Shown here one piece after another: positions 1 through 6,053 of a DNA stretch of 45,057 bases. A program made the position numbers and the translations under genes. This DNA comes from Chromatiales bacterium (GTDB lineage Bacteria > Pseudomonadota > Gammaproteobacteria > Chromatiales > Chromatiaceae): contig JANQLO010000024.1 in assembly GCA_028280505.1 (NCBI GenBank), forward strand, positions 1 to 45,057. Reading direction: 5' to 3'. How positions within the stretch are numbered: position 1 is the first letter of the stretch; each line of letters opens with the position of its first letter. The notes beneath the pieces are model-generated. The model was not told where the DNA came from. It searched no databases and was given only the letters and a program-made list of their open reading frames with translations.

Positions 1-201
1 CCCATCATGCGGCAGTGGTACCTGGTCTATCCGCGTGGCAAGGAGTTGTCGCTGGTTGCGCGCGCCTTTCTCGAATTCGCGATCGAAAGCGAGGTCGCGA
101 TGCGTGAGCGCATGGAAACGATATGGCCCTGGTTGAGCAAGTACATTCAGCGTCCGGCATCGAAGAAAAAGACCACCAAGCGGCGTACGAGTCGTAAGTA
201 A
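1..201 (+). CDS. LysR-family transcriptional regulator, C-terminal end (probable CbbR)
   Basis: Only the last 66 codons are in the window; the frame is open from base 1, so this is the 3' end of a longer gene. The segment WYLVYPRGKELSLVARAFLEF is the usual C-terminal end of the LysR effector-binding domain and closely resembles CbbR, the activator of Calvin-cycle genes. It is followed by a Lys/Arg-rich tail (KKKTTKRRTSRK). The neighbours on its 3' side are carboxysome-type genes on the opposite strand, which supports CbbR, but the DNA-binding half lies outside, so the assignment as CbbR is inference; LysR family membership is firmer. Confidence 0.8.
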   Translation, partial: PIMRQWYLVYPRGKELSLVARAFLEFAIESEVAMRERMETIWPWLSKYIQRPASKKKTTKRRTSRK

Positions 202-253: not shown

Positions 254-817
254 TTAACCTGTCCGGTTTGTCCGCATACGGCGGGTCTTTTCGACCATCC
301 GATAGGTCGAGCGACTGTTGTTGAATCGTGCGACCTCGTTCAGGGCTACCCAGCCGACCTGATGCGATTCGTCATTGCCGGGCAGCGGCAGTTGATCGTC
401 GATCTCGACCAGAAAGCGCACGTCGAAATGAACATGTGGCGGGTCGCCGGCGACCTCGGGGATGGCGTGTACGTCGACATCGAATACGTTGTCATTGACC
501 AGACGGATGTGATCGGGCTCGAGCCCGGTTTCTTCCGAGGTCTCGCGTAGCGCGACACGTAGGATGTCGCCATCGCCATCGGCGTGGCCGCCCGGCTGAA
601 ACCATTGATCGTGTTTGCGATGGTGCAACATCAATACGTGATCGCGTGACGGATTCACCACCCAGGTCGAGCCCGTGACGTGACCGTGCCAGTGGTGGCG
701 TTCGAAACAGTCTTCGTGGTTTTCGACGAAGTCAATGGCGCGCGCAAGGTAGGCTGCTTCATCGTTGAAGTGGGTACGATGGTGTTTGAGATGTTGCAGC
801 AGTTCCTTGCGGTGCAT
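254..817 (-). CDS. Nudix hydrolase
   Basis: A 187-residue protein with a Nudix box around residues 76-98: a GGHADGDGD stretch followed by REtsEETGL. The Glu expected before the REU part is Gly followed by Asp, a pattern that I recall from the GGHxDGD-type subfamily, while the metal-binding REXXEE core is intact. Nudix enzymes hydrolyse nucleoside diphosphates linked to another group; the substrate here cannot be read from sequence. Translation begins at an ATG 3 nt after the csoS1D stop, so the two are almost certainly co-transcribed. That neighbourhood raises the possibility of a metabolite-cleaning role near RuBisCO, which is speculation. The 3' end faces the LysR gene, convergent. Confidence 0.88.
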   Translation of the reverse strand: MHRKELLQHLKHHRTHFNDEAAYLARAIDFVENHEDCFERHHWHGHVTGSTWVVNPSRDHVLMLHHRKHDQWFQPGGHADGDGDILRVALRETSEETGLEPDHIRLVNDNVFDVDVHAIPEVAGDPPHVHFDVRFLVEIDDQLPLPGNDESHQVGWVALNEVARFNNSRSTYRMVEKTRRMRTNRTG

Positions 818-820
818 GGC

Positions 821-1435
821 TCAGGTTCCGGACGGGTTTTGTACTGCCGCGATTGCGGCAGCCGCGGCCTCGTCGACATCGCTTTCGCGTCCGGACAAGG
901 TTAGTCGTCCGAAGGCACCTACCGCGCGTACGTCGATCAGGGTGATGTTGGCTGCTTTTTCGGCCTGGTTTGCGGCATAGATCACGTAGCCGGCCGGTTC
1001 GGTTTCGAGTATGAACATGCTTTGTCCGGGCAGAATCATGGAGCCCCGTCTGTCCTGACGGTTGATCAGTACGGTGTGATCCGGTGTCATGCCGCGGATG
1101 ATCTCCTGCCAGGCGATACGACAGGTTTCGCGGTCTTCCAAGCGTGCGTTCATCCGCGACAATAGCAATCGGCCGGCCTCGCGTACGTCGCTTTGATCGC
1201 GCTGGTGTATGACCATCGAGCCGAAGGCACGTTCCACCACCTGCTGCGCCAAATGCACCCGGGTTGCTTTCAATGCGATATCCGTCAGACGGTGCACCGC
1301 CATACCGGGTGATACTTCGATCCACAGACAAGCGTCACCGGGCACCGGTAGAAAGCCCTGTGAAACGGTTGCCATGTACTCAGCCAGCTGCGGTTGCAGC
1401 GAATCGATGTAAACGTAGGTTCTGAGCTTGATCAT
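821..1435 (-). CDS. csoS1D: Carboxysome shell protein CsoS1D (tandem BMC domain, BMC-T)
   Basis: A 204-residue protein built of two bacterial-microcompartment domains: a divergent first one (residues about 1-100, beginning [17 protein letters not shown]) and a canonical second one (about 105-198, with [16 protein letters not shown] and [11 protein letters not shown]). Tandem BMC proteins form pseudohexameric trimers, and CsoS1D trimers stack to give a gated pore for large metabolites in alpha-carboxysome shells. A Glu-Arg pair at residues 68-69 lies where the pore-gating pair of characterised CsoS1D is expected; that alignment is inference. Without the N-terminal extension of cyanobacterial CsoS1D the length fits proteobacterial forms. 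It lies between an RbcS-like gene and a Nudix gene, all leftward. The main carboxysome operon is not in the window. Confidence 0.93.
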
Positions 1436-1567
1436 GACAGCCGTACATCCAAATTGCGGCCGCCATGATAAACCGTCGGGATGCGGGAGTTCCCGTCGAA
1501 TATGGCATTTATGATTTTTGGTTCGAGACCTAAGGCTGCGCGTTCCGGCCTCGGGGCACGGCTATCG

Positions 1568-1891
1568 TCAGCGTGATTCGCTTTCTGCCTGATGTACCAC
1601 GAAAGAGAAACGGCTCTTGCAGCTATAGTCTTCGACGTTGAGTCGTATGTGGTGACGACCCTCGTGGGTGTCGCGACAACGCGCGATCTCGCCGTATACC
1701 ATGTCCGGGTTGCCGTCGTAACAACTTGGCGTGCCCCAGACCTGCCAGGGGGTGTAACGCGGCGATACCGACGGTGTGTGTTCGATGCAGATGACGCATC
1801 CCCGGCGCAGGCAGTGGCCGATCTTTCCCAGTACCGGATCGGGTTGCTGAGTGCCGATGTTCTCTTCCGTCGGTTGTTTGATGGCTTGCAT
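1568..1891 (-). CDS. RuBisCO small-subunit-like protein
   Basis: A 107-residue protein with the conserved order of a RuBisCO small subunit: a G-x-x-x-CIEHTP strand at about 31-40, SPRYTPWQVWGTP at 43-55, MVYGEIARCR at 64-73, HHIRLNVEDYS at 80-90 and SFVVHQ at 96-101. It lacks the N-terminal ETxSYLPPL segment of true CbbS and has a short polar N-terminus instead. No large-subunit gene is adjacent; the neighbours are SulP upstream and csoS1D downstream on the same strand. It may be a divergent small subunit, or an SSU-fold adaptor that binds RuBisCO or recruits it, comparable to the SSU-like domains of CcmM; that is inference. A GGGGA sequence lies upstream of the ATG. Confidence 0.75.
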   Translation of the reverse strand: MQAIKQPTEENIGTQQPDPVLGKIGHCLRRGCVICIEHTPSVSPRYTPWQVWGTPSCYDGNPDMVYGEIARCRDTHEGRHHIRLNVEDYSCKSRFSFVVHQAESESR

Positions 1892-2044
1892 GAATGCGTC
1901 CCCGTATCTGCGAGTGGCGGTGCCACGGACGGTCTGGACGCAGGGTGTCGAGAATCGATGCCGTTGTCCCTGGTTCGCAGATTAGTCAGCGGGCCCTGCA
2001 AACGGAAATCGGTCATTGCCCACCGATCTATAGAGAACTCTCTA

Positions 2045-2069
2045 TGTGGGAAGTAATTCCACAATGTGG
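2045..2069. promoter_or_regulatory. Overlapping dyads built on TGTGG/CCACA, possible operator
   Basis: TGTGG at 2045-2049 can pair with CCACA at 2059-2063 (arms TGTGG(G)AA and TTCCACA, one bulged base), and the same CCACA can pair instead with TGTGG at 2065-2069. The site lies in the 220-base gap between sulP and the RbcS-like gene, on the upstream side of the latter. It could be a regulator site or alternative RNA hairpins. No regulator is assigned. Confidence 0.35.
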
Positions 2070-2111
2070 TTATGGGCTTTATCCGGACGCTCCGGTAGTG
2101 GTTTGAACAGG

Positions 2112-3794
2112 TCATGCAGCGGCGAATCCGTCTTTGTCACGCGACGGTTGATCCGCTGCCAGCAGGTTGCCCGCATGCGCTAGCGCATCCTGGCGGTTGG
2201 CGAACAAATTACCATCGACGGCTTTTATTATTCCAAGCTTTTCAAGACGTTGTAGTACGTCTCCTTCGGCGCCTGCGATCAGTACGGTGCGGGCACGTTC
2301 GAGGTCTTCCATAACCATGCGTTCCAGCGCCAGAGATGACGAGACGCCGAGTACCGGGACGTCCGTAAAGTCGAGCACCAAAACCTCGTGATCCGCCAAT
2401 ACGGCGTGTTGCCGTGAAATCGCCTTCGCCAATCCGAATATCAATGGACCGCCAAGGGTAAATATCAAAATGCGCCCACGGGCCTGTTCGAGGATGGTTT
2501 GTTCGTCGCACGAGAGATGTTCGGCGGTCTCCGGACTTTCGATCGTCTTCACCGATTTACTTTGCAGTTTGATCATGCGCTCGATGGTCAGGATGTTGGC
2601 GACGAACACACCGAGCGCAACCGCGGTGACGAGATCGACGAACACCGTCAGGCCAATCACGCCATACATAATCGTCGCGGCCTTGACGGAGACACGGTGA
2701 GCACGGCCGATGAACGACCAGTCGATAATGTCGAAGCCGACCTTCATCGCGATGCCGGCCAATACCGCCAACGGGATGTGTGACGTGAGACCGCCGGCCC
2801 ACAACACGACGATGGCAAGCAGTCCCGCTCGGGTGAGTCCGGACAACGCACTACGCGCCCCGGTCTGGATGTTGACTACGGTGCCCATGGTCGCGCCGGC
2901 ACCGGGAATGCCGCCGCACAGACCGGATGCCAGGTTGCCTACGCCCTGGCCGAGCAGCTCCTTGTCGGCCTTGCTTTCTTTGTGCGTCAAGTTTTCCGCG
3001 ATCACCGAGGTCAGTAGGGCATCGATACTGCCGAGCACCGCAAGCACGGCGGCGTCCATGACCATCAGCTGCCATTGTTCGGCACTGAATACCGGAAGTT
3101 GCAGGTCGGGCAGTCCGGTCGGTATCGGACCGATTAACCTCAAGTCGCTGTTGCCGAAAATAAAAATCGCGGCCAGAGTCCCGACAACCAGCGCCACCAA
3201 TTGAGGCGGCATGAGGCGGGCGAAGCGTTTGGGAAACAGCACGATCAGCACAAAGGTCGCCACGGCGAGTATGGTCTCGGCGGGTTTGATCGACTGGATC
3301 AGGTCGGGCAACGCCTTTAAGGTGCCGATAACGCCGCCGGCAGGTGGTGTGTTGCCGAGAAAGGGGGCGAGCTGTAGCACGATCAGGATGATGCCGATGC
3401 CGCTCATGAAGCCCGAGACGACCGTGTACGGCATCATGGTCACATAACGCCCGAGCTTGAGTACGCCGAAGGCGATCTGGAACAGGCCGGCCATCATCAC
3501 GACCGTGAATGCCATCGCCATGCCCTGTTCCGGATTCGATGCGATGAGATTGGCGATGACCGCGGTCATCACCACGGTCATCGGGCCGGTCGGTTCCGAG
3601 ATCAGGGTGGGCGTGCCGCCGAACAAGGCCGCGAACAGACCGACCAGCACCGCGCCGTAGAGCCCGGCGACCGGACCCGCGCCGGAGGCGACCCCGAAGG
3701 CCAGCGCCATCGGTAACGCAATGACCGCTGCCGTTACCCCGCCGAATATGTCGCCACGGAGATTGTCAAATCGGATTTCGTTAAGTAAGTGCAC
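2112..3794 (-). CDS. SulP-family anion (probable bicarbonate) transporter with STAS domain
   Basis: A 560-residue integral membrane protein. Hydrophobic helices fill residues about 10-410, with the SulP features ALPMALAFGVASGAGP near the first helices and ISEPTGPMTVVMTAVIA around 65-80. The cytoplasmic STAS domain follows (about 435-535, LIFTLGGPLIFGLAKAIS and LDFTDVPVLGVSSSLALE). SulP carriers take up sulfate, bicarbonate (BicA type) or other anions. Because the gene is next to csoS1D and an RbcS-like gene, bicarbonate uptake for a CO2-concentrating mechanism is the likely role; in sulfur-oxidising autotrophs SulP genes are known near RuBisCO/carboxysome loci. Substrate is inferred from context only. 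The start is a GTG preceded by AAAGG. Confidence 0.9.
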   Translation of the reverse strand: MHLLNEIRFDNLRGDIFGGVTAAVIALPMALAFGVASGAGPVAGLYGAVLVGLFAALFGGTPTLISEPTGPMTVVMTAVIANLIASNPEQGMAMAFTVVMMAGLFQIAFGVLKLGRYVTMMPYTVVSGFMSGIGIILIVLQLAPFLGNTPPAGGVIGTLKALPDLIQSIKPAETILAVATFVLIVLFPKRFARLMPPQLVALVVGTLAAIFIFGNSDLRLIGPIPTGLPDLQLPVFSAEQWQLMVMDAAVLAVLGSIDALLTSVIAENLTHKESKADKELLGQGVGNLASGLCGGIPGAGATMGTVVNIQTGARSALSGLTRAGLLAIVVLWAGGLTSHIPLAVLAGIAMKVGFDIIDWSFIGRAHRVSVKAATIMYGVIGLTVFVDLVTAVALGVFVANILTIERMIKLQSKSVKTIESPETAEHLSCDEQTILEQARGRILIFTLGGPLIFGLAKAISRQHAVLADHEVLVLDFTDVPVLGVSSSLALERMVMEDLERARTVLIAGAEGDVLQRLEKLGIIKAVDGNLFANRQDALAHAGNLLAADQPSRDKDGFAAA

Positions 3795-4107: not shown

Positions 4108-5103
4108 ATGACGATCGACGCGCTAGAGCAGTTCATCGCGACAATGCGACTCAGCCGGCAACAAGACGGTGTCGCGCTCACGCATGCATTGATCGAGAAT
4201 CTCCGCCTCCAGGTGTCGACCGCTGAGGTGTGTGTACTGGAAGTGTTCGGCAGCCGTCGCCTGGCGGTCGCCGGTGCCGAACTGAGCACGAGCGAGATCA
4301 CCATTCGGCGGTTTTCCGACGTCGGTCAGCGTATGCCGCGGTCTGAACTTGGCCCCGGTATCATGCGAACCATTCGCAAGCTCACGCCTACAGCGGTGGA
4401 AGCCGAAGAATTGGGCGTCGGACGTGTGGTCTTCCCGGTGGTCGATAAAATCGGCCCACTACGTCTCGTGGTGCTCGACCATGTTCCCATGGACCCCTGG
4501 GTGCGTACGCGTATCTTTCAGCTGGTCGAAATCTACGGGAATCTGATTGCCCTGATGGACAGTCGTGAGCGAGATCAGCTCACCGGGCTGCTCAATCGTC
4601 ATTTGTTCGTGAGTCTTTTCGAACTCGCAGCAAAACGCGCCGTCGCGGACGACAACAAGCGTTTGTGGTTGTGCGTGCTCGATATCGATCATTTCAAAGA
4701 CATCAATGATAACTATGGTCATCTATACGGCGACGAGGTGTTGATCCACTTCGCCTATCTGATGGAGCGGTCTTTCCGCTATACCGACGATTTGTTCCGC
4801 TTCGGCGGTGAAGAATTCATTGTCTTGCTAACTTCCGAATCCTCGGAACCGCCGATGCTGCCGTTGGAACGTTTTCGGCAGATCGTCGAAACACACGATT
4901 TCCCGGACGTCGGTCGTCAGGTCACCGTCAGCATCGGTTTCGCCGAATGCGAACGCGGGGCCTTGCCCACGAGCATCATCGACCGCGCGGACAAGGCGCT
5001 ATATCACGCCAAGCAAAACGGCCGTAACACAATCGTGAATCATGCCGATGTTCGGCCGAAGCGCACCGAGGGCTTCGGCAAGGTCGATATATTCGAATCC
5101 TGA
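4108..5103 (+). CDS. Diguanylate cyclase (GGDEF domain) with N-terminal GAF-like region
   Basis: A 331-residue soluble protein. The C-terminal half (about residues 150-315) is a complete GGDEF domain: DxLTGLLNR, LDIDHFKDINDNYGHLYGD, the active-site GGEEF at 233-237 and YHAKQNGRN near the end. An RYTD motif (224-227) sits five residues before GGEEF, the position of the inhibitory c-di-GMP site, so product inhibition is expected. The N-terminal 150 residues have no membrane segment and look like a GAF-type sensory region, but no ligand can be assigned. It makes c-di-GMP from two GTP. A clear GAGGAAG ribosome site precedes the ATG. It converges with SOR, leaving 8 bases between the two stops. 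Confidence 0.9.
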   Translation: MTIDALEQFIATMRLSRQQDGVALTHALIENLRLQVSTAEVCVLEVFGSRRLAVAGAELSTSEITIRRFSDVGQRMPRSELGPGIMRTIRKLTPTAVEAEELGVGRVVFPVVDKIGPLRLVVLDHVPMDPWVRTRIFQLVEIYGNLIALMDSRERDQLTGLLNRHLFVSLFELAAKRAVADDNKRLWLCVLDIDHFKDINDNYGHLYGDEVLIHFAYLMERSFRYTDDLFRFGGEEFIVLLTSESSEPPMLPLERFRQIVETHDFPDVGRQVTVSIGFAECERGALPTSIIDRADKALYHAKQNGRNTIVNHADVRPKRTEGFGKVDIFES

Positions 5104-5111
5104 AACCGTTC

Positions 5112-6053
5112 TCAGCGCAGGCCCTGCAGAATCTCGCGATAGGTATGTTCGCGGAACATGCTGTCGGAGATGCGCACCGTGGGCATGGTCAAACAGTTGT
5201 TCAGCACCTTGGGGCCATGCACGAACAGGATCTCGGGCTTGACGTTGACGTGTGGCATGCCGCCCTGCGCCGAGGCCAAGTCCTCGAATTCCACCATAGT
5301 CAGATACTCCGCCGGTATCGTATAGCCTTCCCAGACCTCGGCCGCGCGCTTCAGCTTGGTGCCGGAGCTGTCCTTAAGGTCTTCCATCAGCGACTCGACA
5401 GTGGCGTGACCGCTGCCCAGGGTCGATAGACCGATGCGTTTCAGAATCTGGTAGCCGACCACGCCGGCAGTCTCTTTCAGCATTTCCATGGTCTGGATCT
5501 CACCTTCTTCAAACTCGGTCTCTTTACCCGGTTTGATGCGATGACTGGCCAGCACGGTCACCGTTTCTCCCGTGTCCATGGCGTAACCGCGGGTGTCGCC
5601 GTTTCGCTCGAAGCCGAGTTTCATCATCTGATTTTTCGAGATCAGTTTCGGTAGATCGCTTTTGACGATGCGATAAACCGGTTCCTCCGGCCCATCGAGC
5701 AACACGCTGCCGCATTTGGCGCAGGAATCGACGACGACATCTTCGAAGGTTTCATGAAAATCTTCATGCGCATCCAGCGAATCCCAATAGGTGAATTGAT
5801 CGATCCAGATGTGCGACAGCTCGTTCGACATATCGGATGCGGCGGCCCAACGCATGCCCATGGGGCAAGTCCCGCGCTGGCGCATCAGATCGAAGCCGCG
5901 GAACCCGGGGGTGAGAGCAGTGGCCAGGCACATCTTGCTGCTGGCCTCTTTCATCATGCGCATCAGGTTTGGGTCGTTCAGCACCAGAACCTTATTGATA
6001 GCGACATACAGTGGCGATTTCGGCTCGGCATCGAAAAGCGCTTTGATATCCAT
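5112..6053 (-). CDS. sor: Sulfur oxygenase/reductase (SOR)
   Basis: A 313-residue cytoplasmic enzyme that, in this family, disproportionates elemental sulfur with O2 to sulfite, thiosulfate and sulfide without external cofactors. The family's key residues are present: the persulfide-bearing Cys at 42 in KMCLATALTPGF, the mononuclear iron ligands His96 and His100 (AHEDFH) and Glu124 (EEPVY), and the CxxC pair at 111/114. Length matches archaeal and bacterial SORs (about 310). SOR forms a hollow 24-mer in characterised cases. The gene stands alone, divergent from a quinone oxidoreductase gene across 191 bases; a GAGGA ribosome site lies upstream of its ATG. Assignment is strong from the motif set. 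Confidence 0.94.
   Translation of the reverse strand: MDIKALFDAEPKSPLYVAINKVLVLNDPNLMRMMKEASSKMCLATALTPGFRGFDLMRQRGTCPMGMRWAAASDMSNELSHIWIDQFTYWDSLDAHEDFHETFEDVVVDSCAKCGSVLLDGPEEPVYRIVKSDLPKLISKNQMMKLGFERNGDTRGYAMDTGETVTVLASHRIKPGKETEFEEGEIQTMEMLKETAGVVGYQILKRIGLSTLGSGHATVESLMEDLKDSSGTKLKRAAEVWEGYTIPAEYLTMVEFEDLASAQGGMPHVNVKPEILFVHGPKVLNNCLTMPTVRISDSMFREHTYREILQGLR

Follow-up and report, generated by a model that had tools for sequence, protein, structure and literature searches.

Some purple sulfur bacteria encode, beside the genes of their alpha-carboxysomes, a small protein with the predicted fold of the Rubisco small subunit (RbcS) that lacks the N-terminal arm of its canonical relatives. 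This protein, for which we coined the name SSL, is described here from a 45,057-nucleotide stretch of DNA of a Chromatiales bacterium (contig JANQLO010000024.1 of assembly GCA_028280505.1), referred to below as the window; the window is the whole of one contig, C20, among the 85 contigs of a 4.65-Mb genome. Four genes on its minus strand encode a SulP/BicA-like anion transporter, SSL, a CsoS1D/CcmP-type tandem BMC shell protein and a Nudix hydrolase, and together they form an accessory arm of an alpha-carboxysome locus directly behind the cso operon. SSL itself is a conserved RbcS paralogue without the arm; its gene is found with that of a transporter, and with either csoS1D or the Rubisco operon. 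By analogy with the SSUL domains of CcmM, and with a probability that we put at roughly 0.5, SSL would be a stand-alone accessory subunit paralogue of alpha-carboxysome loci that docks on L8S8 Rubisco and links or tunes the enzyme during assembly.

The sequence-only reading of the window had named these four genes, and Pfam backs each name at its position on the minus strand. The transporter (2112-3794; 560 amino acids) matches PF00916 at 310.1 bits and carries a STAS domain (PF01740); SSL (1568-1891; 107 amino acids) matches PF00101 at 41.4 bits over a cut-off of 27; the shell protein (821-1435; 204 amino acids) matches PF00936 at 42 bits; and the Nudix hydrolase (254-817; 187 amino acids) matches PF00293 at 54.2 bits. 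Gaps of 220, 132 and 3 bases separate SulP from SSL, SSL from CsoS1D and CsoS1D from Nudix, respectively. The 3' end of a CbbR-type LysR regulator noted beside them is also real (1-201, plus strand). The same reading had called the group a satellite carboxysome cluster, a name that implies a shell gene lying apart from the core genes. Indeed, no core cso gene is found in the annotated part of the window, and the other BMC, RbcS and csoSCA matches of the genome are on other contigs. The satellite label is nevertheless ruled out by the junction with one of these contigs, C52. The first 99 bases of the window are exactly the last 99 bases of C52, this 99-mer has only these two matches in the genome, and both contig ends fall inside one CbbR-like LysR gene, the rest of which ends C52 (best NCBIfam match of that part, a CbbR model at 249.3 bits, below its cut-off of 450). 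A shared 99-mer of this kind is presumably the signature of adjoining contigs in a k-mer assembly. On C52 the genes run cbbL-cbbS-csoS2-csoSCA-csoS4-csoS1(x3)-Bfr-ParA-CbbR, where Bfr is bacterioferritin-like, and cbbLS, csoS2, csoSCA, csoS4 and csoS1 together make this an alpha-carboxysome locus. Nine proteins of C52 were compared with NCBIfam; several fell under their cut-offs, and CbbS, with no match at 1e-10, is named from PF00101. Looking leftward of base 1, as had been proposed, therefore finds both cbbLS and the cso operon. The arrangement is unbroken in relatives: on one contig of a Chromatiaceae metagenome-assembled genome (L150, the same stretch as L184), SulP, SSL, CsoS1D and Nudix are followed by CbbR and a cso operon facing them, and SSL-CsoS1D-Nudix stands ahead of CbbR and cso in L149, in G015 and in the single-contig genome G558 (L191). 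Because the contigs overlap, the cso operon lies on C52 and the same order is contiguous in relatives, the cluster is no satellite.

The SSL open frame measures 137 amino acids from stop to stop, and the protein is not a domain of a larger multi-domain protein. All 28 members of the family match PF00101 (RuBisCO_small). An AlphaFold2 model built from the 28-row alignment has a mean pLDDT of 82.4, with the first 15 residues below 50, and its best Foldseek matches in the PDB, among those listed, are Rubisco small-subunit chains. In its PF00101 domain and modelled RbcS fold, SSL agrees with Rubisco small subunits; it departs from them in the N-terminal arm, by which RbcS clamps to the large subunit. 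Of the 49 canonical sequences taken from the fetched loci, 48 carry a motif of this arm, F-[SGR]-[YFH]-L-[PH], picked from the alignment in this analysis; none of the 28 SSL sequences has it at the corresponding position. The only SSL open reading frame that contains it (L196, 1/28) does so only upstream, in an over-long extension that is not part of the trimmed protein. The single canonical row without the motif, L054_19357, is counted within the 49 and was dropped from the tree and the column counts, which hold 48 canonical rows. SSL also has columns of its own. Cys27 is found in 28/28 SSL and 5/48 canonical sequences, and Cys32 in 28/28 and 0/48, the canonical residue being W in 47/48; G60 and S93 each occur in all 28 SSL and no canonical sequence, and H76 in 27 and 3, respectively. 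Ten columns are invariant across the SSL sequences, with Cys27, Cys32 and Cys72 among the invariant residues, and E37, W49, W52, C72, R83 and V99 are common to SSL and RbcS.

Twenty-seven of the 28 members come from the 210 genomes searched in the order of the window, its own genome included, and one (G015) from outside the order. A first three-row scan found six relatives in 34 candidate stretches, namely L149, L150, L151, L152, L153 (from the isolate Thiococcus pfennigii) and L154 (the divergent protein of G036). An 8-row profile gave 29 matches at E 1e-14 in the 210 genomes, 27 of them at 89 bits or more, and five of these records are L149-L153 again; the remaining two, G410 (58.8 bits) and G141 (57.7 bits), were dropped as canonical RbcS. 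The 28-row profile matched 4/369 genomes in a sample of the class (the genome of the window, G015 and two at 56.8 and 55.4 bits beside their own cbbL) and 6/398 in a sample of the phylum (the genome of the window and five at 62.3 bits or less, taken from score alone as canonical RbcS). The score gap spans two profiles, since the ceiling of 62.3 bits for other matches at E 1e-14 comes from the 28-row profile and the floor of 89 bits for SSL proteins from the 8-row profile. Among the RbcS matches of 148-152 amino acids in the class search, those opened proved to be ordinary small subunits like those of form IC/ID, mostly encoded beside their own cbbL, and not SSL. Judged from these sequence matches, SSL is confined in the samples to one family, Chromatiaceae by named matches, plus G015. 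G036 encodes, between csoS1D and a second CbbR gene, an RbcS-like protein of 172 amino acids whose C-terminal tail is hydrophobic (L131:6357-6875; L131 is the same record as L154). It is possibly a separately evolved, membrane-anchored relative of SSL; it stood in the first two profiles (A1 and A3), gave no match at E 1e-14 with A4, and is left out of A4 and of all counts of 28.

The surroundings of SSL were compared across its 28 loci (the window, G015 and 26 from the order). Since several stretches are cut by contig ends, the counts are lower bounds on the presence of neighbours. Genes for csoS1D, cbbL or other cso proteins occur in the fetched stretch of 25/28 loci. In 15/28, the closest labelled gene upstream of SSL is a SulP gene of the same strand, at coordinate differences of 116-221. 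Downstream, the next labelled gene is csoS1D in 11/28 (including L189, via tblastn), carboxysomal cbbL in 13/28 and something else in four: L203 has CbbR with the cso operon behind it, L190 has CbbR only, and L196 and L202 have no labelled gene. The full order SulP-SSL-CsoS1D-Nudix, uninterrupted by other labelled genes, is kept in five loci (the window, L184, L193, L194 and L206), continuing into cbbL-cbbS-csoS2 in L193 and L194. Because the same order recurs in 5/28 loci, the grouping goes beyond chance, and the sequence-only reading, which had been staked on the four genes being neighbours in at least some related genome, holds on this point. What survives of it overall is the accessory set for a CO2-concentrating system, given the SulP-SSL, SSL-CsoS1D or SSL-cbbL and CsoS1D-Nudix neighbourhoods that recur in other genomes; what does not is the satellite status, as the set abuts the cso operon.

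A small-subunit relative without the arm could be a functionless, decaying duplicate of cbbS. Its patchy occurrence (24/73 csoSCA genomes) and its branches, longer than those of CbbS in the tree, would fit such a fate. Decay is nonetheless scarcely credible: the ratio of nonsynonymous to synonymous substitution rates (dN/dS) is about 0.09-0.31 in 11/11 pairs, hand-picked within SSL clades, and this ratio indicates that SSL is kept by selection. The ten invariant columns also speak against a decaying gene, as does a tree of 77 rows in which SSL forms one side of a branch, with a weak SH-aLRT of 85 from few columns.

The likeness that best suggests a role is to the SSUL or SSLD domains of CcmM and of the activase-like protein (ALC) of beta-carboxysomes, which share with SSL an RbcS fold without the N-terminal loop, a link to carboxysomes and conserved cysteines. 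The description of these domains as an RbcS-like fold without the N-terminal RbcS loop (PMC7059596) applies to SSL as it stands. Unlike them, SSL is a separate 107-amino-acid protein of alpha-carboxysome loci in proteobacteria; it is neither a domain of a larger protein nor closest to SSUL, being nearer to RbcS by sequence. According to the structural account in PMC7059596, SSUL domains lack RbcS residues 3-17, which carry much of the main RbcL interface, and bind at a separate equatorial site of Rubisco. Because the arm supplies much of this interface and arm-less SSUL binds equatorially, docking of SSL on finished L8S8 is likelier than replacement of CbbS. Rubisco partners of both carboxysome lineages, except CbbQO, are reported to use one patch formed by two CbbL2 dimers and one CbbS (PMC10614612), and SSL could use that same patch. 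Furthermore, the SSUL of CcmM is described as forming regulatory disulfides (PMC8580825), a redox control that the invariant Cys27/Cys32 pair recalls. Under the docking reading, SulP would probably import bicarbonate, CsoS1D would form a low-copy gated pore of the shell with the Nudix enzyme as its partner, and SSL would bind assembled L8S8 Rubisco as CcmM SSUL domains do in beta-carboxysomes. Once docked, it would link or tune Rubisco as carboxysomes assemble, perhaps through a redox switch at Cys27/Cys32, and the genes would be expressed together. A fuller version, in which SSL is a redox-sensitive Rubisco-docking protein and a free-standing counterpart of SSUL, evolved separately from RbcS mainly in Chromatiaceae and tying Rubisco to the CsoS1D pore or to the SulP bicarbonate supply, is less likely than not.

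SSL could instead be an alternative small subunit, occupying RbcS places in some L8S8 complexes and altering their kinetics or sorting into the shell. It has the RbcS fold and shares the core residues E37, W49, W52, C72 and R83 with RbcS, carboxysomal cbbL is its next labelled downstream gene in 13/28 loci, and the text of PMC7059596 allows for an SSUL-like domain in a vacant RbcS site. The authors of the Allochromatium vinosum genome, moreover, speak of two small-subunit genes (PMC3368242). Such a substitution is unlikely, however, for a protein without the arm motif of 48/49 canonical RbcS, given that residues 3-17 make up much of the main RbcL interface as reported in PMC7059596, and 11 of these 13 loci have a canonical cbbS after cbbL, the gene being unlabelled in the other two. 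A transient role as a Rubisco assembly factor, acting on L8 cores ahead of CbbS binding, is very unlikely. An arm-less RbcS-like fold could bind in passing, and the SSUL modules of CcmM M58 are reported to interact with RbcL8 (PMC8580825), but a Pfam search of all members gives RuBisCO_small only and no assembly-factor family.

Several observations weigh against docking in the manner of SSUL. CcmM links Rubisco by several domains, and SSL has a single domain. In a comparison of the SSL profile, which still held the G036 row, with structure chains, the nearest is Rhodobacter sphaeroides RbcS (5nv3, 60.8 bits), followed by other RbcS, and the SSUL of CcmM reaches 31.6 bits; because SSL is nearer to ordinary RbcS, any likeness to SSUL would be convergent. 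The docking itself is something we infer from this likeness. The distribution of SSL cuts both ways. In favour of a link with carboxysomes, csoSCA is found in 73/210 genomes across the order, and in 24/27 of those with SSL (Fisher p 6.5e-10, uncorrected for shared ancestry), an association that may reflect shared ancestry. The profile search did not find SSL in 49 of the 73 csoSCA genomes, so SSL is optional for carboxysomes. The three SSL genomes without a csoSCA match are G375 (csoSCA cut by a contig end), G398 (a fragmented metagenome-assembled genome) and G470. The last (L196), a single-contig genome rated 99% complete, has SulP-SSL and form I cbbL genes and no BMC match, so that SSL is not strictly carboxysomal unless it is a relic there: G470 holds either the remains of a lost carboxysome or an SSL that acts without one.

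G470 also lends some weight to a role outside carboxysomes, in which SSL would act on SulP or on Rubisco, for instance as a sensor coupling bicarbonate uptake to Rubisco. SulP lies directly upstream on the same strand in 15/28 loci, as such a partnership would have it. In 13/28 loci, however, SulP is not the upstream neighbour (some of these being cut by contig ends), and the csoS1D, cbbL or other cso genes in 25/28 stretches make a non-carboxysomal role quite unlikely. Finally, the docking reading leaves CsoS2 in place. A crude pattern had hinted at fewer N-terminal Rubisco-binding repeats of CsoS2 in SSL loci, as if SSL replaced them. A profile rejects this idea: of the 20 distinct SSL loci measured (22 rows, with L152/L188 and L153/L187 duplicated), 19 contain 2-4 repeats. 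Because the repeats persist, SSL is no substitute for CsoS2, a further point against a linker in the style of CcmM. The profile did not detect repeats in Thiococcus pfennigii (L187/L153). Among 16 SSL-free loci, one of which is L154 with the G036 protein, 15 have 2-3 repeats and L142 has none; scores are lower in most SSL loci, which is to be expected when a profile is trained on SSL-free genomes.

SSL seems to have been noticed once before. The 2011 genome paper of A. vinosum DSM 180 mentions a second small-subunit gene downstream of carboxysomal rbcL, leaving its role undetermined (PMC3368242). G472, which we take to be this strain, has the order SulP-SSL-cbbL-cbbS-csoS2-csoSCA, and because of this order SSL is most probably one of the two small-subunit genes counted in that remark. 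The available text of that paper draws no line between SSL and true CbbS and is silent on the missing arm, the wider family and the links to SulP and csoS1D. No other description of the family was found in the open-access literature, as far as its text was available. The accessible parts of a 2026 alpha-carboxysome review (PMC12918739), a locus taxonomy (PMC4207490) and a paper on atypical loci (PMC9164163) mention neither an RbcS-like accessory protein nor Nudix, and those of PMC5853799, PMC4725956, PMC10599003 and PMC10880623 hold nothing on SSL. Within the reach of the search, SulP and CsoS1D are thus expected parts, Nudix is a recurrent partner, and SSL is an uncharacterised protein noticed once in print. 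Alpha-carboxysomes are described as gathering Rubisco via disordered motifs of CsoS2 and CsoSCA, and beta-carboxysomes via a folded RbcS-like domain (PMC10614612). If SSL docks as proposed, a folded RbcS-like protein in alpha-carboxysome loci would break this divide and offer a new handle on Rubisco packaging, and the small-subunit fold would have been taken up as an adaptor on two occasions, in two carboxysome lineages. At a more practical level, the name rbcS may be wrong for small-subunit genes that precede carboxysomal cbbL in purple sulfur bacteria, and the question of SSL is approachable in the culturable A. vinosum.

The partners of SSL are of better-known kinds. The transporter scores 836.4 bits with the BicA model NF050096, near but under its curated cut-off of 880; the shell protein matches the CcmP model over residues 2-203 at 237.8 bits, under the equivalog cut-off of 340. 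Because these cut-offs are missed, the names are given as BicA-like and CsoS1D/CcmP-type. From its sequence, SulP is probably a bicarbonate carrier. A comparable case is SulP-CS, encoded beside the carboxysome locus of Thiomicrospira pelophila and reported to rescue Escherichia coli lacking yadF and cynT at low CO2 (PMC12628692). Both transporters adjoin a carboxysome locus; the available account of the T. pelophila locus mentions no RbcS-like gene, whereas SSL is present here. The 821-1435 product is a tandem BMC protein of the CsoS1D/CcmP kind, 88% identical to its G015 relative. CsoS1D is described as a tandem BMC shell protein whose gene lies near yet often outside the cso operon (PMC12918739, PMC9164163), and the protein of the window is of the same type, with its gene likewise near a cso operon.

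The pairing of CsoS1D with Nudix extends beyond SSL loci. CsoS1D matched 68/369 genomes of the class at E 1e-10. Neighbourhoods of about 7 kb either side were fetched for 60 and added to those of the window and G015, and six genomes with weak or split matches (G006, G042, G190, G191, G214 and G295) were left unopened. The count rests on 59 loci at 60% identity or more, that is, 58 of the 60 fetched and G015, with L147 and L148 excluded (<60%). Neighbours were labelled by BLASTP against the proteins of the genome of the window, so only relatives of those proteins receive names. In 32/59 loci the gene immediately after CsoS1D on its strand is Nudix, and in 43/59 Nudix is present somewhere in the fetched stretch; it is absent from 16, some of which are ended by contig ends. 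CsoS1D and Nudix are therefore a recurrent pair in gammaproteobacterial carboxysome genomes. A Nudix box pattern is found in 28 of the 43 linked proteins, its commonest forms being GGHADGDADILRVALRETAEETG and the same with TSEETG (3 each). In contrast to this frequent partnership, the accounts of CsoS1D in the available text of PMC12918739 and PMC9164163 include no Nudix, and no description of the pair was found in the open-access literature that could be consulted. In the excluded L147 and L148, the CsoS1D-like proteins are 43-48% identical and encoded next to other shell-protein genes; none of the neighbours shown is labelled cbbL, csoS2 or csoSCA.

Beyond the transporter, the window continues with a GGDEF diguanylate-cyclase-type gene (4108-5103; PF00990), divergent from SulP, and near the cluster a sulfur oxygenase reductase (5112-6053), which matches PF07682 at 203.8 bits and scores below the cut-off of its NCBIfam model. 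A gene like the latter lies beyond SulP in L150 (4522-5472), matched by eye on the N-terminus only. Elsewhere in the genome, contig C8 (L004) carries a second form I Rubisco with its own LysR gene and with cbbQ- and cbbO-like genes, named by eye.

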